49,967 nt of DNA, taken from NCBI GenBank assembly GCA_026224875.1, contig JAMFRU010000031.1, positions 1 through 49,967 of the forward strand. The letters are read 5' to 3'. This document shows, in pieces, positions 9,097-22,783 of the stretch (within the stretch, counting starts at the first letter, position 1; every line of letters begins with the position of its first letter). The position numbers and the translations under genes are program-made. Source of the stretch: Acidocella sp. (GTDB lineage Bacteria > Pseudomonadota > Alphaproteobacteria > Acetobacterales > Acetobacteraceae). Under the pieces are notes generated by a model. The model was not told the DNA's origin and did not search any database. It saw only the letters and a program-made list of their open reading frames with translations.

Positions 9097-9831
9097 ATGT
9101 CCAAACCCACACTTATCGGTATTCCGGCCTGCACCAAGCTCATCGCGGGCTATGTCCAGCATGCCACCCCGGCGCGCTACGGCGCGGCCCTCATCGCGGC
9201 TGCCAACGGCATCCCCATCCTCATCCCGCCCGAGGGCGATGCCATGCTGCCGCTGCTCGACCGTATCGACGGCATCATGTTCAACGGCTCGCCCTCCAAC
9301 GTCGCCCCTTTGCGCTACGGCGCCGATTTCGATGCGACCCCCAACGACCACGACCCGGAGCGCGACGCCACCACGCTGCCGCTGATCCGCGCCGCATTGG
9401 AGCGCGGCATTCCCATCCTCTGCATCTGCCGCGGCCTGCAGGAGCTTAACGTGGCACTCGGCGGCACTTTGTTTCAGGAAGTGCATAAACAGCCCGGCCG
9501 CATGGACCATCGCGCCGGCGAGGGTGAGCTGCGCTTTGCCATAAAACACGAGGTGACCCTCACCGGCGAGCTGGCCCGCATTATCGGTGCCACCACCATC
9601 GCCGTGAACTCGCTGCACGGCCAGGCCATCGACCAGCTCGCCCCCAGGTTGGTGGTCGAGGCCACGGCACCCGACGGCACCATCGAGGCCGTGCGGGTGA
9701 AGGACGCGCCCGGTTTCAACATCGCCGTGCAATGGCATCCCGAATGGGAAGTGCTGAATTTCCCGGACCGCAAGAGACTGTTCGAGGCATTCGGCGAGGC
9801 CTGTGCAACGTATCGCAACAACAGGGGCTAA
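9097..9831 (+). CDS. Class I glutamine-amidotransferase-like hydrolase (peptidase C26, PuuD-like)
   Basis: A 244-residue cytoplasmic hydrolase of the gamma-glutamyl-GABA hydrolase / peptidase C26 group, which cleaves gamma-glutamyl amide bonds. The nucleophile is Cys111 in ILCICRGLQELN, and the His-x-Glu pair is H214/E216 in VQWHPEWE; NSLHGQ (171-176) is also family-typical. The start ATG 9097 has GGAG 8 bases upstream at the end of the MFS gene. PuuD acts in putrescine breakdown, but no other puu genes are near, so the substrate (gamma-glutamyl-GABA, another gamma-glutamyl amide or a peptide) stays open. The link with an exporter suggests handling of a glutamylated or amine compound. Confidence 0.8.
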   Translation: MSKPTLIGIPACTKLIAGYVQHATPARYGAALIAAANGIPILIPPEGDAMLPLLDRIDGIMFNGSPSNVAPLRYGADFDATPNDHDPERDATTLPLIRAALERGIPILCICRGLQELNVALGGTLFQEVHKQPGRMDHRAGEGELRFAIKHEVTLTGELARIIGATTIAVNSLHGQAIDQLAPRLVVEATAPDGTIEAVRVKDAPGFNIAVQWHPEWEVLNFPDRKRLFEAFGEACATYRNNRG

Positions 9832-10452: not shown

Positions 10453-11640
10453 TTACGCTGCCTGAGGGGCGCAACGTGCCAGCAGCCGGGCCAGCGTGGC
10501 CGCCGGTATCTGGCGCGCGGATTTGGCGCGGGGCAGGTCCATCTCGGTAATCGTGCCGTGGTCGGGATGCGTGTCCCAATTGTCGAAATGCGCGCGGCCG
10601 GCGTTATCAACGAAGGTTTCCGCCGGCGCATTTTCAGCCAAAATCAGATCATGGCTGGCCAGCTCGACGTGGTAATAGGTGAAAATCTCCGGCATGTGTG
10701 TCTCGCGCCGCACGGAATGGCCGTTTACCAGCGCGCCGGCCTGGATGAGAATATCGTCCACCAGCAGCGCATGCGCGTCGGTTACCAGCAGGTCACGCGC
10801 CGGCACGCCATCGGCCAGGGCCCCGGCGGTGATGCGCACGGGGTAGGCGCGCAGCGGATCGGCGAAGCGGGAATGCACGCTCCGTTTTCCAATCCAGCGC
10901 ACGGGCGCGGCATTGCCGGCGGTGGTCATCACCAGCGCGCCGGGCTGCAAACTCTCGATGGTGGCACTGCCGTCCGGCACGGCAATCATCGTGCCTTCCA
11001 GGAAGCAGAGGTACGAATCACTGACGGTATCAAAGGGGATAATCTGGTGTACGCCAGATCCTGAAGTTAGATCTTCATCGGAAATGATCTGGTCGGCGTA
11101 GCTGACATCGGTGAACTCGAACCCGCCCGAGCTGCTGGAGGCGACGACCGAGGTATAGCCCCCCGCGATATTGATGCTGACGAAGTAATTGCCTTCCGAC
11201 GTGGCGCCGTAGGGGCTGGCGAACAGATCGCTTGAAGTGATGACGGCCGCCACGGTGGTGCCGTTATAAAAGGTGAGCGTATTGCCGCCGTTCATCGAGC
11301 CCCAAAGTATGCCGAAAAATATCTGCGGGCCACCAAAAGTCATGGTGAGGTCATAGCCGCCCGTTGCCGCCAGATAATCGTTGGTAACAGCGATCTGGTT
11401 GTTCTGGTTGGTGGGCGAGGGTGCCCAGGAGTAGCCGGTTTGCCCCTGGTACACGGCGGAATTGCCCGTGAAGGTAATGCTGCCGCCGCTGCCGCCGCTG
11501 CCGAAGGTCAGATCGTCAGCTGTTACCTCAGCGTCCGTTATACCGCCATAATTACCGAAGGTCAGCTGCGAAATCTGACTGTCTTTGGCGATGGTGGTGC
11601 CGTCGAGCAGGCTCAGCGTGTAGGTTTCGGACACAGGCAT
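10453..11640 (-). CDS. Small Hint-domain surface protein (beta-sandwich plus Hint)
   Basis: 395 residues. The N-terminal 210 residues look like a beta-sandwich similar to cyanobacterial/proteobacterial PEP-CTERM-type surface proteins (motifs FFGILWGSMNGGNTLTFYNG and a GGFEFTDVSYAD strand near its end). A Hint_2 domain follows from Cys212 (CFLEGTMIAVPDG; DAHALLVDDILIQAG; YYHVELASHDLILAE). The last 50 residues (ITEMDLPRAKSARQIP) match the tail of the giant Hint protein closely, so the two C-terminal regions are paralogous. No signal peptide is seen. ATG 11640 is chosen because the family-like beginning starts there; a GTG at 11679 would place an inverted repeat inside the gene. It has no minus-strand neighbour within 470 bases and is probably transcribed alone. 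Confidence 0.8.
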   Translation of the reverse strand: MPVSETYTLSLLDGTTIAKDSQISQLTFGNYGGITDAEVTADDLTFGSGGSGGSITFTGNSAVYQGQTGYSWAPSPTNQNNQIAVTNDYLAATGGYDLTMTFGGPQIFFGILWGSMNGGNTLTFYNGTTVAAVITSSDLFASPYGATSEGNYFVSINIAGGYTSVVASSSSGGFEFTDVSYADQIISDEDLTSGSGVHQIIPFDTVSDSYLCFLEGTMIAVPDGSATIESLQPGALVMTTAGNAAPVRWIGKRSVHSRFADPLRAYPVRITAGALADGVPARDLLVTDAHALLVDDILIQAGALVNGHSVRRETHMPEIFTYYHVELASHDLILAENAPAETFVDNAGRAHFDNWDTHPDHGTITEMDLPRAKSARQIPAATLARLLARCAPQAA

Positions 11641-11654
11641 GACTTTCGGTGGAT

Positions 11655-11672
11655 GGTTAATATTTTTTAACC
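11655..11672. promoter_or_regulatory. Inverted repeat in the leader of the small Hint gene
   Basis: GGTTAA-TATTTT-TTAACC is a perfect 6-bp dyad with a 6-base spacer, ending 14 bases before the start codon; a further TAACC half-site follows. It could be an operator or a leader hairpin that covers the ribosome site. No good Shine-Dalgarno sequence is visible. Confidence 0.4.
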
Positions 11673-11755
11673 TAACCACCGCCTGCGCGCCGTAGCAATC
11701 ATTTTTTTGTTAAACTTGTCGTGACTTAATCATATTTTGGTTTATGTTTTATATA

Positions 11756-12115: not shown

Positions 12116-12985
12116 TCAGGTCAGCACAGGCTCCAGATCGACACCCACTTTGAGCGAGTGCCGGCCGCCGCCCAGAATAATCCCGCGCAAGGGCGAGACA
12201 TCGGTAAAATCGCGGCCCCAGGCGAGCGTCACATGCTCATCGGACACCAGCAGATTATTCGTGGGATCAAAATCCACCCAGCCGACATCGGGCCCAAGCC
12301 AGGAGGACACCCAGGCATGGCTCTGGTCCGCACCCCGCCTACGCACCTGGCCGGGCAGCGGCAGTGTGCGCAAATAGCCCGACACATAACGCCCCGGCAG
12401 CCCCAGAGCGCGCAGGCAGGCGATCATGAGATGCGCATAATCCTGGCACACGCCGGTGCGGGTAACCACGATCTGCGCCGCGGTGGTGGAGTTGTTCGTA
12501 ACGCCGCCCTTGTAATTCATTTCGGAATAGATGCGCTGGTTCAGCTCCAGCAATGCCACGAGCATTTTCCGCCCGGGGAGAAAACTTAAAGCAGCATAAT
12601 CGGCAATCTCATTCTGCGGCGTGGCCAGCGGCGAGGGCAGGCAATATTCCGCAACGTCCGGGTCGAGCAGGCCCTTGGCCGCAATCGCCTCCCAGCGCAA
12701 TGTTTCCTCAGGCGGCGGCGGGGCTGGCTGCTCCACCTCCACCGTGGCACTCAGTGAGACGGCAAACTGCTTATGCGCGCCGGTGAGTGCCACCGTGGTC
12801 GTACGGTTACCGAAATGGTCTATCTCGTCGCGCCGCGTTTCCGGCGTGGGCGAAATATCCAGCTGCGCCTCGCGGATGATCTGGCCCGGCCTTGTGCGCG
12901 GCAGCAGATGCATGAAATGCGTGCCCAGGACGACAGGGTTGGCATAGTCGTATACTGTGGAATGATGCAGGCGGTATAAAGCCAT
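12116..12985 (-). CDS. Transglutaminase-like cysteine protease of the ATP-grasp/alpha-E system
   Basis: 289 residues: an N-terminal beta domain typical of bacterial transglutaminase-like proteins (MALYRLHHSTVYDYANPV, about 1-90) and a transglutaminase core. The catalytic triad is Cys180 (TRTGVCQDYAHLM), His223 (DQSHAWVSSWL) and Asp240 (WVDFDPTNN). No signal peptide, so cytoplasmic. Such enzymes cleave or transfer peptide or isopeptide bonds. Genes of this family regularly sit beside circularly permuted ATP-grasp and alpha-E genes, where they are thought to process the peptide product. The start is ATG 12985; a 14-bp tandem duplication places a decoy ATG 14 bases upstream. It is co-transcribed with the fused gene, whose stop lies 16 bases away. 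Confidence 0.85.
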   Translation of the reverse strand: MALYRLHHSTVYDYANPVVLGTHFMHLLPRTRPGQIIREAQLDISPTPETRRDEIDHFGNRTTTVALTGAHKQFAVSLSATVEVEQPAPPPPEETLRWEAIAAKGLLDPDVAEYCLPSPLATPQNEIADYAALSFLPGRKMLVALLELNQRIYSEMNYKGGVTNNSTTAAQIVVTRTGVCQDYAHLMIACLRALGLPGRYVSGYLRTLPLPGQVRRRGADQSHAWVSSWLGPDVGWVDFDPTNNLLVSDEHVTLAWGRDFTDVSPLRGIILGGGRHSLKVGVDLEPVLT

Positions 12986-13004
12986 AACTATAAAGCCATA
13001 ACTA
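12977..13004 (-). repeat. 14-bp tandem duplication over the stop/start junction
   Basis: TAAAGCCATAACTA occurs twice in direct succession (12977-12990 and 12991-13004). Read on the minus strand, each copy carries TAG-TT-ATG-GCT-TTA. The upstream copy therefore makes a three-codon frame, Met-Ala-Leu-stop (12999-12988), whose stop is 2 bases before the true transglutaminase ATG at 12985. Confidence 0.9.
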
Positions 13005-15209
13005 CTGGGCAGCTTCCAGTATTTCGTCATCTTCCAGCGTGTGCGCTTCCGGCAGCAAGGTGAAGAAGCGGCGGTGTACGCGGTCTGACAGCATGCGCAA
13101 TTTGGCCGCGATGGCGACGAGCGAAACGCGCATGCCTGTGACTGAGCCTGCAAGGTTGACGACATCGAGCTGCAGCAGCCGTGCCGCCTCGGCATCGTCA
13201 TCGGCCCCCAGCCGCTCCAGGCAGATGCGCAGAGCGGTGCATTGATATGCCAGCGCGCGAGGGTTGGCGGCATCGGCCAGCAGCATGGCGAATACCGGCG
13301 CGGGGGAGAGAATGCCGGCATGGCGCAGATCATAGCTCAACACCGAATCGGCAAGCTCTATACCCAAAGCCAGCCCCGGCTCCAGCCGCTCCACCGGTGC
13401 GTCGAGCAATATCGCCAGGCTTTCGGCGAGTGTCTCGCCGCGTTCCAGCCGGCGGCCCATTTCCAGGAATAGCCAGCCGCCGTCGCGCACCATGTTCTCG
13501 GCGGCAATGCCGGCGAAGGTGGCGGCAAAACTCAGCATGGTCGGCAGCGAGGCTTCTTCGTTTGGCAGCGCCTCGACCGCCTGGTGCAGAGCAAAGCGCA
13601 CGGTCGCCAGCATGGAGGGGGAAAGCCGCTCGGAAGAGGCATTCACCAGCCGCCCGACCTCTTTGAGCAACCCTGCAACCGGGCGGCGGCGCACGAGCGT
13701 CTGGCGCAGAAACCGGCCGGAAACGGTGGTGCCGGCAAGCTCGGCCGGCAGCAGCCCGGCCTGGGCCAGGCATTTGGTCAGCAGCCCGCGCTCGGCAATG
13801 TCGCGCGGGAGCGAAGTGCCGGATTCCAGGCGCGGCAGGGCCAGCATCAGCAACCGGCAGGCCGCCTCCAGCCGTTCCACCGAGCGGCCGAGCCAGAACA
13901 GATTATCGGCCAGGCGCGAAGGCAGATGGGCCGCGGCCAGAAATTTCACATGCTCCGGCGGTTCGGCCACGGCGGGCGCGCCGGTAAAATTGCGCGGCTC
14001 GTCGGAATCCAGAACCCACAGATCTTTCAGCCCCAGAGCCGGACCTTGCGCCGGCGCTGCCAGCGGCACGCCGAGCCCGCCGGGCACCACCTGCCAGTTC
14101 GCGCCATCATGCCAGGCGAACAGCCGGAAGCTGATCGGCTCCGGGCTGTAGCCGGAACCGTTGATGAACGGCGCCTTGGAGGCCTGGGCAACCGCATCTT
14201 CCTCAGCCGGGGGCAGTAGCGGCTCCTCGCCCAGAAGCTGCCAGAATAATCCATCGATATAACGGCGCAGGGCAGGGGCCTGGGCCAGCGCGCTGCCGGG
14301 GGCGTTCAGCATGGTCAGCACGCTTGCGCGGATCGCCCCGAAAGCGCCGGGAATGCCGTGCCCCGGCCGTCCGCCCTGTTCCAGCGGGTCCAGGTCTATG
14401 CCAGAAACACCGCGAATGAGGGTGGAGATATTGAGAAGCCCGCTCAGCGTCTTCATATGCAGCCCGCCATTGCGCGTGGCGAGGTCGCCGGGCTCGATCA
14501 GCAGCACGCCCAGAGCACGCGCCAGCAGCGCATCATCGGCCAAATCCGCCGCCGCGGACGGGCCATTGGCACCGCCGGAGAGCACGGCCACGAGCCCGCC
14601 CTCGGCCTCGCGCCGCACATGGTCCACCAGCATTTCGCGGGCCGGGCGCAGGGAGCGTATGCCGCCGGCACGAAACAGCTCCGGCAGCGTGCCGGCGGCC
14701 AGGCGGCGCAGGCTCAGAGCATGGCCCAGGCCGGGGATGATGCCGGTATGGTCGCGCAGCACGCTGAAATTACCGTCCGGCCCGCGCACGATATCGACCG
14801 CATACAACCCCAAACGCGGCGCCTGCAGCGGCGCCTGCGTATGCATGGGGCGCAGAAAATGCGGCTCGCCGAGCACCAGAGCCGGCGGAATGGAACCATC
14901 CCGCAACAGGGTTTGCGGCCCGTATAAATCCTCCAGCACCGCGTTCAGCAATGCCGCGCGCTGCTTTATGCCGGCTTCCAGGAACGAAAATTCTGAGCTG
15001 GTCAGCAGCACCGGCAACGGATCGTAAAACCGCCTGGGGGCGGTGCCCATCGGGGCCGCCAGCCCCATCTGCCGGTTGAGTGATGCCGCCCGCCGGTCCA
15101 GCTCTTCCGGCCCAACCTCGCGCACAGCGGCCATGATCGGGGACCAGGGCGCGCGTATCCGTCCATTCCGGTCGATCATTTCGTCGCAGGCAGAGGCAAT
15201 CCTGTGCAT
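13002..15209 (-). CDS. Fused circularly permuted ATP-grasp (degenerate) plus alpha-E protein
   Basis: 735 residues: an ATP-grasp-type half (about 40-400) and an alpha-helical alpha-E half (about 430-735, opening with LPSRLADNLFWLGRSVERLE). The fold can still be followed (IKQRAALLNAVLEDLYG; VPGGLG; KDLWVLDSD). Compared with the stand-alone ATP-grasp gene nearby, the metal/ATP motif LEDN is replaced by LRDH (151-154) and ENR by SLR (166-168). About 60-65 residues holding the lysine and Gly-rich loop (TKPVGESGGYG) are absent between LLGEEP (325-330) and SFRLF (360-364). ATP use is therefore doubtful; I read it as a pseudoenzyme that may bind the product or the active ligase. ATG 15209 is the start. 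It is the first gene of a two-gene unit with the transglutaminase, divergent from the intact pair. Confidence 0.8.
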   Translation of the reverse strand: MHRIASACDEMIDRNGRIRAPWSPIMAAVREVGPEELDRRAASLNRQMGLAAPMGTAPRRFYDPLPVLLTSSEFSFLEAGIKQRAALLNAVLEDLYGPQTLLRDGSIPPALVLGEPHFLRPMHTQAPLQAPRLGLYAVDIVRGPDGNFSVLRDHTGIIPGLGHALSLRRLAAGTLPELFRAGGIRSLRPAREMLVDHVRREAEGGLVAVLSGGANGPSAAADLADDALLARALGVLLIEPGDLATRNGGLHMKTLSGLLNISTLIRGVSGIDLDPLEQGGRPGHGIPGAFGAIRASVLTMLNAPGSALAQAPALRRYIDGLFWQLLGEEPLLPPAEEDAVAQASKAPFINGSGYSPEPISFRLFAWHDGANWQVVPGGLGVPLAAPAQGPALGLKDLWVLDSDEPRNFTGAPAVAEPPEHVKFLAAAHLPSRLADNLFWLGRSVERLEAACRLLMLALPRLESGTSLPRDIAERGLLTKCLAQAGLLPAELAGTTVSGRFLRQTLVRRRPVAGLLKEVGRLVNASSERLSPSMLATVRFALHQAVEALPNEEASLPTMLSFAATFAGIAAENMVRDGGWLFLEMGRRLERGETLAESLAILLDAPVERLEPGLALGIELADSVLSYDLRHAGILSPAPVFAMLLADAANPRALAYQCTALRICLERLGADDDAEAARLLQLDVVNLAGSVTGMRVSLVAIAAKLRMLSDRVHRRFFTLLPEAHTLEDDEILEAAQ

Positions 15210-15608
15210 TGCAGCAGGCTTAACAGACAGATGCGCAAGTGCCTACCGCGAAATCTTTATTCTCCACCGCAAATATTGTTGATCGCCCGGCTGCTCCGCT
15301 AGCTGGTCTGGCGGCTGGTCCGGCGCTTGCATGGCCAGTTGCAGGGGCCATCGTGAGAGGGCTTGCAGCGTAACCCGTTTTGGGGGCAGCTTGAGGGGGC
15401 GACATGACGAATCGGTGCCATAGAATGGGTCATGAAATGGGTCATGCTTGATGAAGAGCTTTCATAGCAGCTTGGTGAGAAGCTCCGCGATGCGCGCGCC
15501 AATGGCGCCGATTTCAGCACTTTCACGGCATGCAAGCCTGTCATTTCAGCGCATCACGCACGCAACGCCTGCAATCATGCACACAAAAACTTACCCGGAG
15601 GCTGTGCT
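15210..15608. promoter_or_regulatory. Divergent intergenic region of the ATP-grasp/alpha-E locus
   Basis: About 400 bases between the start codons of the fused gene (minus) and the intact ATP-grasp gene (plus). It has to hold both promoters. I see no convincing -10/-35 pair with proper spacing. The notable element is an 11-bp direct repeat at 15424-15446. No gene or RNA recognised. Confidence 0.4.
15424..15446. repeat. Direct repeat AATGGGTCATG x2, 12-bp period
   Basis: AATGGGTCATG at 15424-15434 and 15436-15446. Its place in the middle of a divergent promoter region and a period near one helical turn suggest binding of a regulator to one face of the DNA, but a chance duplication is possible. 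Confidence 0.4.
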
Positions 15609-17120
15609 GTGAGCGAAATTTTTAAAAGCCTCTGGCCGGATTATGACCCCGGGCGTTTTTTCTGCGAGCTGACCGCCAACCGGCCCGATGCCGGACCGGT
15701 GCCCCGCCTGCTGGCCGAACGCCTGGGGCGCATCGGCCTGCCGGACCTGCGGGCCCGTGCCGCCGCGGCGGAAACCGATCTCATCGACCTGGGCATCACC
15801 TTCACGGTCTATTCGGATGCCACCGCCATCGACCGTATTTTGCCGTTCGACTGTATCCCGCGCGTGCTCACCGCCTCGGAATGGGATTTGCTTGAGCGCG
15901 CCTGCAAACAGCGCGTTGCCGCCCTTAATCTGTTCCTGGGCGATATCTACGGCAAGCATCAGATCATCAAGGACGGCATCATCCCCGCGGACCTGGTCTT
16001 CAACAATCCCAACTACCGGCCGGAGATGCAGGATTTCCCGGTGCCGCACGGCACCTACGCGCATATTTGCGGTATCGATATCATCCGCGACGAAGCCGGC
16101 GATTTCCGCGTGCTCGAAGACAATGCCCGCACCCCCTCGGGCGTCTCCTACGTCATCGAGAACCGGCATCTCATGCTGCGCACCTTTCCGGACCTTATGT
16201 CCGGCATCAAGCTGCTGCCGGTGGATGATTACGGCCGCCGCCTGCGAGGCGCCATGGCGGAGGTTGCACCAGGCGGGCATGGCGACCCGCAGGTCGTGCT
16301 GCTCTCGCCCGGCATCTATAACTCCGCCTATTTCGAACATGTGTTTCTGGCGCGCGAAATGGGTGTGCCGCTGGTCGTCGGCGCCGATCTCATCGTCGAG
16401 AACGACCGCGTGTTCATGCGCACCACCGCGGGCTTGAAGCCGGTCCACACCATCTACCGCCGCCTTAACGATGACTTCCTGGACCCCGAGGTGTTCCGCC
16501 CGGAATCCATGCTCGGCGTGAAGGGGCTGATCCGCGCCTGGAAGGCCGGCAACGTGGCGATCGCCAATGCCGTCGGCACCGGTGTGGCCGATGACAAGGC
16601 GGTCTATGCCTATATGCCGCGCATCATCAAATATTATCTGGGTGAGGAAGCGCTTATCAAAAACGTCGATACGCATATATGCGGCGAGCCCGAGGGGCTG
16701 AAATACACGCTGGATAATCTCGACAAGCTCGTTACCAAGCCGGTCGGCGAATCCGGTGGTTACGGCATCACCATCGGCCCGCGCGCCAGCAAGGAAGAGC
16801 TGGAAGCCTCGCGCGCCGCCATTCTGGCCGCCCCCAGCAACTGGATCAGCCAGCCGATGATCGGCCTCTCGGTCGGGCCCACGCTGGCCGAGGAAGGCAT
16901 CGGTCCTCGTCACTTGGATTTGCGGCCCTTCATCGTCACCGGCAAGGACAGCTGGGTGTTGCCCGGCGGCCTCAGCCGCGTCGCCATGACGCGCGGTTCG
17001 CTGATCGTGAATTCCTCCCAGGGCGGCGGCTCGAAAGACACCTGGGTGCTGGCCGATGATTTTGCCCCCAATTCTGTTGCGGCAGCCAATTCTGTTGCAG
17101 CAGAGGGGGGCGCGAAATGA
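15609..17120 (+). CDS. Circularly permuted type 2 ATP-grasp protein (putative peptide ligase)
   Basis: 503 residues, matching the DUF404/DUF407 family of circularly permuted ATP-grasp ligases, predicted to form amide bonds between amino acids or peptides using ATP. Key parts are intact: GIDIIRDEAGDFRVLEDN (155-172, with E170 and N172 as likely metal ligands), SGVSYVIENR (177-186), RRLNDDFLDP (284-293), the ATP-binding lysine and loop VTKPVGESGGYG (375-386), and LPGGLSRVA plus GGGSKDTWVL (451-481). The start is GTG 15609, with CCGGAGG 9 bases upstream. The stop overlaps the next start by 4 bases (ATGA). The C-terminus contains an 18-bp tandem duplication giving NSVAAANSVAAE. First gene of a three-gene unit. 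Confidence 0.88.
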   Translation: MSEIFKSLWPDYDPGRFFCELTANRPDAGPVPRLLAERLGRIGLPDLRARAAAAETDLIDLGITFTVYSDATAIDRILPFDCIPRVLTASEWDLLERACKQRVAALNLFLGDIYGKHQIIKDGIIPADLVFNNPNYRPEMQDFPVPHGTYAHICGIDIIRDEAGDFRVLEDNARTPSGVSYVIENRHLMLRTFPDLMSGIKLLPVDDYGRRLRGAMAEVAPGGHGDPQVVLLSPGIYNSAYFEHVFLAREMGVPLVVGADLIVENDRVFMRTTAGLKPVHTIYRRLNDDFLDPEVFRPESMLGVKGLIRAWKAGNVAIANAVGTGVADDKAVYAYMPRIIKYYLGEEALIKNVDTHICGEPEGLKYTLDNLDKLVTKPVGESGGYGITIGPRASKEELEASRAAILAAPSNWISQPMIGLSVGPTLAEEGIGPRHLDLRPFIVTGKDSWVLPGGLSRVAMTRGSLIVNSSQGGGSKDTWVLADDFAPNSVAAANSVAAEGGAK

Positions 17121-18133
17121 GCACCTATATGCGCGAACCCGGCCTGCTGGCGCGCGACGCCGAAGGCCTGTTCTGGATGGCCCGCTATCTCGAACGCGTC
17201 GAAAATCTCGCCCGCCTCATCGATGTGACCCAGAGCTTCGAATCCCCCGGTTTCGAGACAGACGCCTGGTGGGGGTTGATCAAAATCAACGCCGATGAAA
17301 AACGCTTCGAGGAGCGCGGCTTCTCGGCCGATGCCACGCATATAAAACGCTTCTATCTGCTCGATGCCGGCAACCCCAGTTCCGTGCCCGGCAGCCTGGA
17401 AGATGCCCGCACCAATGCCCGCACCCTGCGCCCGCTGATGAGCACCGAGATGTGGCGCCAGATCAACGTGTTCCACCGCTTCGTCGGCCGCATCGGTCCC
17501 GCGGATCTGGAAGGCGACGCGCTCTCGCGCCTGTGTACCAAGCTGAAAGACGGCGTGCAGGCGCATACCGGCATCACCGAAGGCACGTTGTACCGCGACC
17601 AGGGCTGGTATTTCTACGAGCTCGGCCGGCTGGTGGAGCGCGCCGACCAGACCACGCGCCTGTTGGACATTAAATACACCGCTTTGCAGCCGCGCGGCGG
17701 GCGCGAGGAAAAGCGCATGGCCGAGCTGACGCAATGGAACGCGGTACTGCGCGGGGCCGCCGGCTACCACGCCTTCAAACGCCGTGCCCGGGCCGAATTC
17801 TCGCCCGAGGATGTGGTGCATTTCCTGCTGCGCGATGCCTCATCCCCGCGCTCGGTGCTGCTCTGCATCCGCCGCATCGAATCGCATCTCGACGACCTGC
17901 GCCGCATGTACGGCCTCTCCGCCGCCGGCGAGGCGGTTGAGCTGGCGGAGATGTTACGCGAATTTCTTGTCGAAAAACCGCTCAGCCATATTCTAAACAC
18001 AGGTCTGCATGACTATCTGGATATCGTGCAGATTCAATTACAAAACCTAGCCGGCTGTATAGGCCGTGGCTTTTTCCGGGACTGGCGCCCGGAACCCGCG
18101 TCAGAGCAGACGCAGGTGCAGTCGCAGGCGTGA
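17117..18133 (+). CDS. Stand-alone alpha-E domain protein
   Basis: 338 residues, all-helical, DUF403/alpha-E family: LLARDAEGLFWMARYLERVENLARLID near the N-terminus, WYFYELGRLVERADQTTRLLD in the middle and LLRDASSPRSVLLCIRRIESHL towards the end. No enzymatic motif is known. Alpha-E proteins accompany circularly permuted ATP-grasp ligases and transglutaminases and are thought to be a core part of the same peptide-forming system. The start overlaps the ATP-grasp stop (ATGA), showing translational coupling and probably a fixed ratio of the two proteins. It is the split counterpart of the C-terminal half of the fused protein across the divergent promoter. Confidence 0.87.
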   Translation: MSTYMREPGLLARDAEGLFWMARYLERVENLARLIDVTQSFESPGFETDAWWGLIKINADEKRFEERGFSADATHIKRFYLLDAGNPSSVPGSLEDARTNARTLRPLMSTEMWRQINVFHRFVGRIGPADLEGDALSRLCTKLKDGVQAHTGITEGTLYRDQGWYFYELGRLVERADQTTRLLDIKYTALQPRGGREEKRMAELTQWNAVLRGAAGYHAFKRRARAEFSPEDVVHFLLRDASSPRSVLLCIRRIESHLDDLRRMYGLSAAGEAVELAEMLREFLVEKPLSHILNTGLHDYLDIVQIQLQNLAGCIGRGFFRDWRPEPASEQTQVQSQA

Positions 18134-19874: not shown

Positions 19875-21386
19875 CTATGGCCCTCGGCGCAGAAAGGCCG
19901 GGATTTCGAGGCCGACTTCGTCGATTTGCGCAGGGCGCACGGCGGGGCGGGCTTCGGGTTGTGCTTCGGCCTGGATGGCGGGTTCCTGGCGGTGGTGTTG
20001 GTGGGCGGGCGCTGCGGGCTTGTTGGCGCCGCCGAATCCGAACACGGATTTAAAGATGCTGCTGCCGGTTTTGGGTGTTTCCGGCACGCGCACCGGGGTT
20101 GGTGCTACGGAGTGGGCCGGCTGGCGGGGCGGCATCGGGCGGGCGGGGGCAGCAGCCGGGGCGAGCTGGGCGACCAGATCGGCGGTTGCCGCCACGGTGG
20201 AGGGGGATTCATGCGCGCCGAGGGCGATTTCATGCCCGCGATCCACAAAGGCTTTGGAGATGAGCGGCGTTGCCGGGGGCTCGGGCACATAGCCGCCCTG
20301 GCGCGAGACCGGTGCGCTGCCCTGCTGGTTTACGGCCTGGTTGGACACGGCGGAGGGGAAGTTCACCGGCTCGGCGCCATTGACCACTTTCAGGCTCGGC
20401 ATAACCTGCTGCGGCGTGGAATCGATACCCGTGGCGACCACGGACACGCGCAGGCGGCCGCACATGGTGTCGTCCATCGACATGCCGAACATGATGTTGG
20501 CATCGGAGTCGACTTCTTCCTTCACGCGGTTGGCGGCCTGGTCGATTTCGAACAAGGTAATGTCGGAGCCGCCGGTGATGTTGATGAGTAGGCCGCGCGC
20601 GCCCTTCATGTTGGTATCTTCGAGCAGCGGGTTGGAGATTGCGGCTTCGGCGGCGCGGATGGCGCGGTCTTCGCCTTCGGCCTCGCCGGTGCCCATCATC
20701 GCCTTGCCCATTTCACGCATTACGCTGCGCACGTCTGCAAAGTCGAGATTGACCATGCCGGGCATGACCATGAGGTCGGTAACGCCACGTACGCCCATAT
20801 AGAGCACGTTATCGGCCATCTCGAAGGCTTCTTTCCAGCCGGTACGCTCGTTCGCAACCTTGAAGAGGTTCTGGTTGGGAATGACGATCAGCGTATCGAC
20901 ATAGGCCTGCATCTCGATGATGCCTTCCTCGGCGGCGCGCATGCGGCGCTTGCCTTCGAATGCGAACGGCTTGGTGACGACGCCAACGGTGAGGATATCC
21001 CGCTCGCGCGCCATGCGGGCGATGACGGGGGCGGCACCGGTACCGGTGCCACCGCCCATGCCGGCAGTGATGAACACCATATGCGTGTTCTCTAAATGCC
21101 GGGCGAGGTCTTCCGACGCTTCATCGGCCGAGAGTTTTCCCACATCCGGCCGCCCGCCGGCGCCATTGCCTTGTGTTAAGTGCGGCCCGAGCTGAATGCG
21201 CTTTTCAGCGAGCGAGCGCTGCAGCTGCTGCGCATCCGTGTTAGCCACAACAAAGTCCACACCCGGTAGATTGAGCGCGATCATATTGTTGACGGCATTG
21301 CAACCGCCACCGCCTACACCGAACACCGTAATGCGCGGGGTGAAGTCCGTGTGGGTCGGTTTGTCTATCGACAGATGCAAAACCAT
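19875..21386 (-). CDS. ftsZ: Cell division tubulin homologue FtsZ
   Basis: 503 residues. GTPase that polymerises at mid-cell into the Z ring. The tubulin signature GGGTGTG is at 111-117, the nucleotide-binding start [14 protein letters not shown] at 22-35, and the catalytic T7-loop NLDFADVR near 215. After the core (about 325 residues) comes a long disordered Pro/Ala/Gln-rich linker with a conserved [12 protein letters not shown] island. The protein ends in [10 protein letters not shown], the peptide that binds FtsA and other partners. Length and linker are typical of alphaproteobacteria. ATG 21386 has GAGGAGAG 7 bases upstream. Last gene of the dcw cluster and the only one preceded by a real gap, so it probably also has its own promoter. 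Confidence 0.97.
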
Positions 21387-21478
21387 TTTTTTCTCTCCTC
21401 AGGCGAATAGCGGTAAAGAACGCTTCGATTTCATGTCAAACATGTTTTTTTTGAAATCCCCGTTTTTCAGGAATCGGG
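21387..21478 (-). promoter_or_regulatory. ftsA-ftsZ intergenic region with possible ftsZ promoter
   Basis: The only non-coding stretch within the dcw cluster. On the minus strand a perfect -35-like TTGACA (complement of 21434-21439) lies about 50 bases before the ftsZ start, but no good -10 is found at 16-18 bases (TTACCG/TACCGC); TATTCG lies too far. The palindromic ACATGTTTGACATG context may also be a binding site. An ftsZ-specific promoter here would fit the need for more FtsZ than FtsA. Confidence 0.35.
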
Positions 21479-22783
21479 TCAGACACGGTTTTTCAGGAAG
21501 TCCACGATTTTGCCGAACCAGCTGCTGCCGCGTTCGGCGTCGAAATCAATATCGTGCATCGTTTGGCCGTCGCCGGTGGCGAAGGCCAGTAGTCCGATCA
21601 GTGTGGCAAAGCCCGGCCCGCTGGCGGAATCCGGCAGGCCGATGACCGGGCCCGGCCGCCCTAAGCGCACCTGGCGCTCCAGAATATGAGAGGCAAGCTC
21701 GCGCACGCCGCCCAGTTGCGAGGCACCGCCCGTGAGCACCACGCGCGAGGCCGCTTCCCGGCCAAGACCAGCTGACTCCAGCCGCTCTTTAACCATTTCG
21801 AACACTTCCTCCAGCCGCGGACGGATGCAGCCTATGAGATGCGAGCGCGGCATCTGCGCGATCTGATGTTCGGCCTCGCCGACGAGTGGGACCGGCAGCA
21901 GCTCGCGCTGGTCATCCGGGCTCAAATGGCAATTGCCGTACAGCGCCTTCAGCCGCTCGGCATGAGCGATGGAGGTGGACAGGCCCTTCGCGATATCGGT
22001 GGTGACGTGATGCCCGCCGATCGGCAGCTGGGAGGTGTATAAAATTTGGCCCTCGGAAAACACCGCCATGGTGGTGGTGCCGCCGCCCATGTCGATGAGG
22101 GTGGCACCCAATTCGCGCTCATCGGCCGCCAAAGTGGCCAGGCCCGAGGCCATAGGGGCCGAGACGAGTGCCGCGATATCCAGCTCGCAACGGGCGAGAC
22201 AGGCGGCGAGCGTACGCAAAGCCGTGCTGCCGGCATCCACCACATGCAGCTGCGCGGTCAGAATATCGCAGAACAACCCGCGCGGGTCGGTGACACCGGA
22301 GGTTTCATCGGTGGCAAAGCTCAAGGGCAGCGCATGGATCACGGCGCGGCCATCGGAATTGGCGCGGTGGCGGGCTTCGCGCACCACGCGGCGGATGTCA
22401 TCGGCCACCACGGCGCGGCCATCCACCGGCCATTGCACATTGAACAAACGCGATTCCGGGCCGCCGCAGGAGAGGTTTACCAACACGGATTTCAGGCGTG
22501 TATCGGCCTGGTCCTCAGCCGCGCCCACAGCGGCGCGGATCGCCTTTTCCGCCTCTTCGATATCCACGATCCCACCGGATTTGATGCCCCGGCTCTTCTG
22601 CCAGCCAAACCCTAGGCAGCGCAGCCGCCCATCGGCTTCGCCGCGCCCGATCATGCAGGTGATTTTCGAGGAACCGATATCCAGCACGCCAAACGGGCCG
22701 GAGCGGATGGTGCGGTTACGTACCGGTTCATCCGCCCTGGTGATGGCATCCAGTCCGGGCGGGCGGCGCGTCATGCTATTCAT
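21479..22783 (-). CDS. ftsA: Cell division protein FtsA (actin-like Z-ring membrane tether)
   Basis: 434 residues, actin/Hsp70 ATPase fold. Phosphate-1 motif GVLDIGSSKITCMIG (32-46), phosphate-2 LIDMGGGTTTMAVF, and adenosine motif VVLTGGASQLGGV. The C-terminal GKIVDFLKNRV is the amphipathic helix that attaches FtsA to the inner membrane, where it anchors FtsZ filaments. An N-terminal extension of about 30 residues precedes the fold, common in alphaproteobacteria. The start overlaps ftsQ by 8 bases. Confidence 0.95.
   Translation of the reverse strand: MNSMTRRPPGLDAITRADEPVRNRTIRSGPFGVLDIGSSKITCMIGRGEADGRLRCLGFGWQKSRGIKSGGIVDIEEAEKAIRAAVGAAEDQADTRLKSVLVNLSCGGPESRLFNVQWPVDGRAVVADDIRRVVREARHRANSDGRAVIHALPLSFATDETSGVTDPRGLFCDILTAQLHVVDAGSTALRTLAACLARCELDIAALVSAPMASGLATLAADERELGATLIDMGGGTTTMAVFSEGQILYTSQLPIGGHHVTTDIAKGLSTSIAHAERLKALYGNCHLSPDDQRELLPVPLVGEAEHQIAQMPRSHLIGCIRPRLEEVFEMVKERLESAGLGREAASRVVLTGGASQLGGVRELASHILERQVRLGRPGPVIGLPDSASGPGFATLIGLLAFATGDGQTMHDIDFDAERGSSWFGKIVDFLKNRV

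Follow-up and report, generated by a model that had tools for sequence, protein, structure and literature searches.

A fused pseudo-ATP-grasp/alpha-E protein of Acidocella: predicted loss of ligase chemistry, repeated excision of the ATP-binding module and a neighbouring transglutaminase

The window analysed here is a stretch of 49,967 nucleotides from Acidocella sp. (GenBank assembly GCA_026224875.1, contig JAMFRU010000031.1, positions 1 to 49,967 of the forward strand). It encodes a protein that joins a circularly permuted (CP) type 2 ATP-grasp region to an alpha-E domain and, divergent from it, a stand-alone CP ATP-grasp ligase that appears intact. Both open reading frames of this pair, described in an earlier note as a fused gene of 735 amino acids facing an intact paralogue, are real. 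The fused protein is very probably not an ATP-grasp catalyst. Sequence comparison of its family shows that the catalytic residues are lost, that the former metal site is basic in nearly all members, that other core residues are kept, that selection is purifying and that one module has been excised repeatedly. The favoured reading, on which our judgement is evenly balanced, is that the fused protein is a non-catalytic, anion-binding pseudo-ligase scaffold serving a transglutaminase module.

Catalytic residues of the fused protein and its family

The CP_ATPgrasp_2 profile (PF14403) matches the window's fused protein with 225.2 bits (cut-off 32) over profile positions 1–270 of 374 only, whereas the stand-alone ligase is matched over positions 1–374 of 374 with 514 bits. 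The Alpha-E profile (PF04168) is matched completely (1–294 of 294, 136.6 bits), in agreement with the earlier observation that the alpha-E half is kept. The two ATP-grasp regions share 32% identity across 285 residues, and their alignment confirms the contrasts previously pointed out, namely LRDH in the fused protein versus LEDN in the ligase, and SLR versus ENR. Between a conserved glycine (residue 305 in the fused protein, 323 in the ligase) and a conserved proline (347 and 424) lie 41 and 100 residues, respectively, so that the gap of about 60–65 residues claimed for the ATP-binding lysine and Gly-rich loop measures 59. The position of K330 is occupied by proline, and K377 and the SGGYG loop have no counterpart. 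A search of the whole fused chain for such a lysine or loop elsewhere found none: none of its eight lysines stands in that context, and its single glycine-rich spot, GGLG at 377, aligns to a conserved PGGL motif in the ligase. Judged by its sequence, the fused protein has none of the features by which an active ligase would be recognised, i.e., the E-x-N metal ligands, the lysines and the Gly-rich loop. It differs from CP_ATPgrasp_2/CP_ATPgrasp_1 proteins (PF14403, PF04174; solved member 3N6X) in being without the E-x-N motif, the DDK lysine and the DLRPF aspartate, and the Acidocella form is also without the module that follows the LLGE motif.

The residues were counted in an alignment of 67 stand-alone ligases, 31 of them Acidocella-like with more than 80% identity to that of the window, and of 152 fused proteins, the latter comprising 79 long alphaproteobacterial rows, 28 other long rows (27 from Pseudomonadota and one named Actinomycete plasmid member), 11 short rows and 34 Acidocella rows. 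Fragments (L080, L083, L088, L140 and L143), stand-alone open reading frames of fewer than 430 amino acids and repeats of identical core sequence were dropped before counting; two truncated rows from Acidocella, of 581 and 710 amino acids, were retained, and one collection step excluded fused open reading frames that fell short of query residue 700 or of 700 amino acids. All 67 ligases keep EDN, and all four features (the Glu and Asn of E-x-N, the DDK lysine and the DLRPF aspartate) are present in 67 of 67. Of the 151 fused rows that are not gapped at this site, 2 retain Glu and none retains Asn; the first lysine (DDK, K315) persists in 3 of 152 and the DLRPF aspartate in 0 of 152. In the long alphaproteobacterial rows, E155 and K315 are each kept in 1 of 79, and the second lysine (K362) in 5 of 79, compared with 9 of the 28 other long rows. 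The Actinomycete member shows the same metal-site loss. At the former Glu/Asn, 148 of 151 fused rows carry a basic residue (77/79 long alphaproteobacterial, 27/28 other long, 11/11 short and 33/33 Acidocella rows) versus 0 of 67 ligases. Every fused row retains R171, D245, D277, N305, R424 and D462, and the Arg of the SLR/ENR motif is invariant across all 219 aligned rows. Because the E-x-N loss is family-wide, the LRDH/LEDN contrast is a family trait. The description of the window's gene as a dead copy therefore holds for the absence of catalytic residues, but not as a peculiarity of this genome, as the E-x-N and DDK losses extend throughout the family.

The E-x-N motif is taken here to be the Mg-binding metal site, by analogy with ATP-grasp enzymes such as D-Ala ligase and glutathione synthetase, and its assignment also uses the spacing D142-13-E155-2-N157. 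A profile search of the PDB for the residues of glutathionylspermidine synthetase returned 3n6x and 13 matches with E of 0.44 or worse, and nothing useful was found in the literature on metal-ligand residues; the assignment thus rests on this analogy and on the spacing. Fused and stand-alone proteins (57 and 30 rows) separate across one branch (Shimodaira–Hasegawa-like approximate likelihood ratio test, SH-aLRT, 100) in a tree that samples 30 of the 67 stand-alone, 20 of the 79 long, 7 of the 11 short and 2 of the 34 Acidocella rows. Given this split and the shared loss, the predicted metal-site loss is placed at the root of the sampled fused family.

Excision of the ATP-binding module and constraint on the remainder

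The Gly–Pro spacing in the fused family is 83–106 residues in 107 long rows and 39–44 in 45 short rows, with none intermediate. Short forms were found in 34 of 34 aligned Acidocella rows, in their relatives L094–L096 and, beyond these, in L097, L098/L100/L101, L099, L102, L161 and L162. On a tree calculated without the module columns, the long/short label needs seven changes, six of them forced by starred branches; this tree of 73 rows was made by a quick method from 8 of the 34 Acidocella and 54 of the 79 long rows, among others, and its stars mean less beside long branches. On a careful tree of Acetobacteraceae, again with 8 of the 34 Acidocella rows, the label needs four changes. A single origin of the short form within Acetobacteraceae was rejected by the approximately unbiased (AU) test (p-AU 1.7e-5), and joining L098/L100/L101 to the Acidocella lineage was borderline (p-AU 0.052). 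The loss in L102 may be common with the Acidocella lineage (support 75/20). The short L099 is the sister of the long L119 from the same genus, and L161 and L162 sit in other families amid long forms, L161 on a long branch. From these trees it is concluded that one module of about 60 residues, bearing the second lysine and the Gly loop, was lost at least six separate times, leaving 39–44 residues. The direction is inferred to be from long to short because the stand-alone ligases and outgroup rows are long. Of the two layers of loss, the 59-residue excision appears to be the one special to Acidocella and some other lineages; a comparison with relatives, suggested in the earlier note, thus gives a divided answer, in that the residue losses are shared family-wide and the excision is found only in some lineages.

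Two genera, g313 (L099/L157 and L119) and g318 (L097/L155 and L117), were each observed to contain long and short fused forms. These are neighbours on the tree, with good support in g313 and weak support in g318, and would represent recent excision events. The fused proteins of Caballeronia (L251), Sinorhizobium (L252) and Tsukamurella (L250) have the same architecture, metal-site loss and downstream transglutaminase as that of Acidocella, and keep the module of about 60 residues in degenerate form, whereas Acidocella and at least five other lineages have lost it.

Within Acidocella, the short form occurs in 34 distinct rows, 32 of which have an open frame of at least 725 amino acids and two of which are cut, and is therefore no assembly artefact. 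An Alpha-E search found a fused-gene match in 36 of 37 Acidocella genomes and none in the remaining one (G005, 82% complete). Ratios of non-synonymous to synonymous substitution rates (dN/dS) were calculated pairwise among Acidocella by the Nei–Gojobori method for pairs with dS of 0.1–1.5. The median was 0.25 for residues 1–335 of the fused protein (426 of 465 pairs), 0.42 for residues 336–425 (289 of 465), the fastest part, and 0.18 for the alpha-E part (412 of 465). The neighbouring genes gave medians of 0.11 (stand-alone ligase), 0.20 (transglutaminase) and 0.14 (stand-alone alpha-E protein). The fused gene is constrained by purifying selection, less tightly than the ligase, and by the usual combination of lost catalytic residues with purifying selection the protein would count as a pseudoenzyme. 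The earlier suggestion that the gene is kept rather than decaying is borne out by these values. A dying paralogue heading for loss would be consistent with the fast C-terminal grasp part and with a TGA within one matched piece of an Acidocella metagenome-assembled genome (G003, 86% complete), but such decay is highly improbable considering the medians of the two main parts, the 32 open frames and the equal extent of excision in separate lineages.

Could the family instead be an enzyme with altered chemistry, such as acyl transfer or the hydrolysis of amides without a metal or without ATP? The invariant or near-invariant polar residues D142, R145, R171, D245, D277, N305 and R424 and the almost always basic former metal site are what such an enzyme might show. 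However, at least six lineages appear to have cut about 60 of some 400 grasp residues while the remainder stayed under selection (as measured in Acidocella), and altered chemistry is considered improbable.

Transglutaminase and ligase as candidate partners

A transglutaminase gene lies directly downstream of the fused gene at every Acidocella locus (57 of 57) and every long-form locus (76 of 76), at 28 of 29 loci that are mostly non-alphaproteobacterial and at 16 of the 20 remaining short-form loci. These counts are of loci, not genomes (some genomes are counted twice), and loci with fewer than 500 bases downstream were excluded; L250–L252 are bound to match because their transglutaminases served as the queries, and L252, one of the 29 loci, is alphaproteobacterial. 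The window conforms, with a same-strand transglutaminase directly downstream. Tsukamurella and S. meliloti have the order fused–transglutaminase, and Caballeronia has ligase, alpha-E, zinc peptidase (other strand), large transglutaminase, fused and transglutaminase.

Co-occurrence was tallied by hand from listings of 289 alphaproteobacterial genomes, 43 of them with a listed fused gene; G105 and G275, which gave no more than weak matches, were scored as being without ligase or fused gene. DUF2126, the mark of the large transglutaminase, is present in 35 of the 43 fused genomes versus 9 of the 246 others, and a full-length stand-alone ligase in 39 of 43, with a fragment in 3 more, versus 65 of 246. 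As a side observation, a large transglutaminase of more than 1000 amino acids was not among the matches in four short-form genomes (G080, G324, G453 and G513), and the other nine short-form genomes of that search have it. Eight genomes were examined again, and in four of them the fused gene is present with no match to a stand-alone ligase, namely G355 (100% complete), G587 (96%), G390 (85%) and G135 (84%).

These data bear on the earlier note's proposal of a regulatory or product-binding role alongside the active ligase, in which the fused protein could act, for example, as the pseudo-subunit of a hetero-oligomer. Its co-occurrence with the ligase stands, the two genes are divergent neighbours in Acidocella, G347, G417 and G472, and the core fold and many residues are retained. 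However, the near-constant neighbour is the transglutaminase, four genomes have the fused gene and no ligase match, and the two of these that were opened (G355 and G390) keep the order large transglutaminase, fused, transglutaminase. Moreover, many genomes have the stand-alone ligase and no fused gene, so the ligase does not need the fused protein. Both links are strong, and only that to the transglutaminase remains in these two drafts; a ligase partner is thus regarded as unlikely, though less so than altered chemistry.

In the favoured reading of a scaffold serving the transglutaminases, a CP ATP-grasp protein would have given up Mg-ATP chemistry at or soon after joining alpha-E. Needing neither metal nor ATP, the remaining core would grip an anionic peptide or carboxylate (an amide product or substrate), and core and alpha-E together would present this ligand to the neighbouring transglutaminase and, in genomes that have it, to the large transglutaminase-DUF2126 protein. 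The stand-alone ligase/alpha-E pair would make or extend the amide compound. A bolder version, held tentatively and with clearly less confidence, is that the whole fused family is a metal-free, ATP-free 'reader' in which the Mg site has become an anion pocket, the partners are the transglutaminase pair, and the ATP-binding module is dead weight excised lineage after lineage at near-identical borders.

Several points weigh against the scaffold. In one genus (G472 and G417, the four short-form misses), the small transglutaminases adjoin the large one and not the fused gene. Eight of the 43 fused genomes are without DUF2126, the large transglutaminase of the window's genome is on a contig apart from the fused gene, and the association with the ligase is also strong. 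Adjacency and co-occurrence are no proof of contact, and the G355 assembly is a draft in 380 contigs and that of G390 a draft in 720. Some fused members could still bind nucleotide, as 5 of 79 alphaproteobacterial and 9 of 28 other long rows keep the second lysine, and among all fused rows 2 keep the Glu and 3 the first lysine. The predicted model of the fused protein has a mean predicted local distance difference test (pLDDT) score of 59.5, with residues 181–300, 404–436 and 570–645 below 50. In the literature covered, no binding, activity or interaction result was found for any fused member; in one report, a co-expression pull-down of the Y. bercovieri Anbu operon, which as described contains no fused protein, gave no specific contacts (PMC6376114).

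Layout of the locus, related systems and implications

The features of the locus are collected in Table 1. By inspection, the downstream transglutaminase has the Cys, His and Asp motifs. The genome of the window has one large transglutaminase-DUF2126 gene and a third, small transglutaminase, both on other contigs, and searches of it found no further CP ATP-grasp or alpha-E gene. Homologues of the fused protein at 23 loci are 66–87% identical and mostly from Acidocella, with a few otherwise labelled (Verrucomicrobia bacterium, Rhodovastum).

Table 1. Positions of the fused gene, its neighbours and their notable segments in the window
Feature	Position	Strand	Basis
Fused pseudo-ATP-grasp (CP type 2) and alpha-E gene, 735 amino acids	13002..15209	-	Open reading frame and Pfam
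RDH, residues 152–154 of fused protein, aligned to E170-D171-N172 of stand-alone ligase	14748..14756	-	
SLR, residues 166–168 of fused protein, aligned to ENR (184–186) of stand-alone ligase	14706..14714	-	
Leftover 41-residue linker (306–346) of fused protein; ATP-binding module apparently excised	14172..14294	-	
Full-length Alpha-E domain of fused protein	13062..13925	-	Profile match
Transglutaminase-like protein immediately downstream of fused gene	12116..12985	-	Start 12985 is a chosen Met
Stand-alone CP ATP-grasp ligase, apparently intact, 503 amino acids; divergent from fused gene	15609..17120	+	Open reading frame and Pfam
Ligase residues 324–423 (K330, K377, SGGYG 382–386); counterpart of the 41-residue linker	16578..16877	+	
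Stand-alone alpha-E protein, 338 amino acids; overlaps end of ligase gene	17117..18133	+	Open reading frame and Pfam
Sigma-54-like -24/-12 element TGGTCC-N6-TGC, oriented toward ligase/alpha-E operon	15316..15330	+	Conserved in Acidocella

Among the nearby genes, a Peptidase C26/class I glutamine amidotransferase (GATase) of the gamma-glutamyl hydrolase type (9100–9828, +, start approximate) lies about 2–3 kb from the transglutaminase, as another glutamyl-amide enzyme close to the cluster. A protein of 408 amino acids (10453–11679, -) carries a Hint_2 domain, and its long N-terminal segment matches no Pfam family; FtsZ with an adjoining protein that is FtsA-like by eye (19875–22783, -) lies beyond the cluster.

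The divergent region contains a sigma-54-like element. TGG-N9-TGC was found at one position in 20 of 22 Acidocella divergent regions (shuffles: mean 5.7, maximum 13), and a stricter form in 19 of 22 (shuffles: mean 0.8, maximum 4), the pattern having been chosen after the conserved stretch had been noticed. The window's copy has two mismatches from the consensus used and lies about 280 bases ahead of the ligase start. Consensus matches across the whole window number 84 with 81 expected, no excess over chance, and the case for sigma-54 therefore rests on conservation. Sigma-54 itself (Sigma54_DBD) is encoded in four of four genomes searched, and the Acidocella ligase operon is a candidate for sigma-54 (nitrogen) control.

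The ATP-grasp, alpha-E and transglutaminase genes of the window's module are of the same kinds as in the ATP-grasp/alpha-E/transglutaminase/Anbu peptide-modification systems reportedly described by Iyer et al. 2009, with a predicted role in peptide synthesis or tagging. The glutathione-synthetase-like effectors of Globodera pallida (5oet, 5oeu), unlike the fused protein, are eukaryotic, secreted and without alpha-E. The ATP-grasp/alpha-E/transglutaminase/Anbu systems are cited in PMC5666114 and PMC6376114, and the latter states that the stand-alone member of Y. bercovieri releases phosphate from ATP, the sole activity report found for these proteins. No naming of the fused copy as a pseudoenzyme and no repeated excision was found in the literature covered, which did not include Iyer et al. 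2009; both appear unreported, and that paper may have priority.

In the Caballeronia, Sinorhizobium and Tsukamurella records, the fused proteins share the name of the intact ligase, 'circularly permuted type 2 ATP-grasp protein'. If the fused family lacks a catalytic site, one ligase and not two should be counted in models of this amide/peptide system, which is widespread and uncharacterised, and a scaffold acting with the transglutaminases should be sought. As to the condition under which the system matters, the sigma-54-like site, together with a report that places a cluster containing DUF404/DUF407, DUF403 and two genes for transglutaminases among common NtrC/sigma-54 targets of B. cenocepacia (PMC5491218), points to nitrogen limitation. 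The repeated excision would be a natural experiment that marks the dispensable part and yields short proteins for structure work and, if the 'reader' view is true, the short forms would constitute a natural series of minimal pseudo-ligases.

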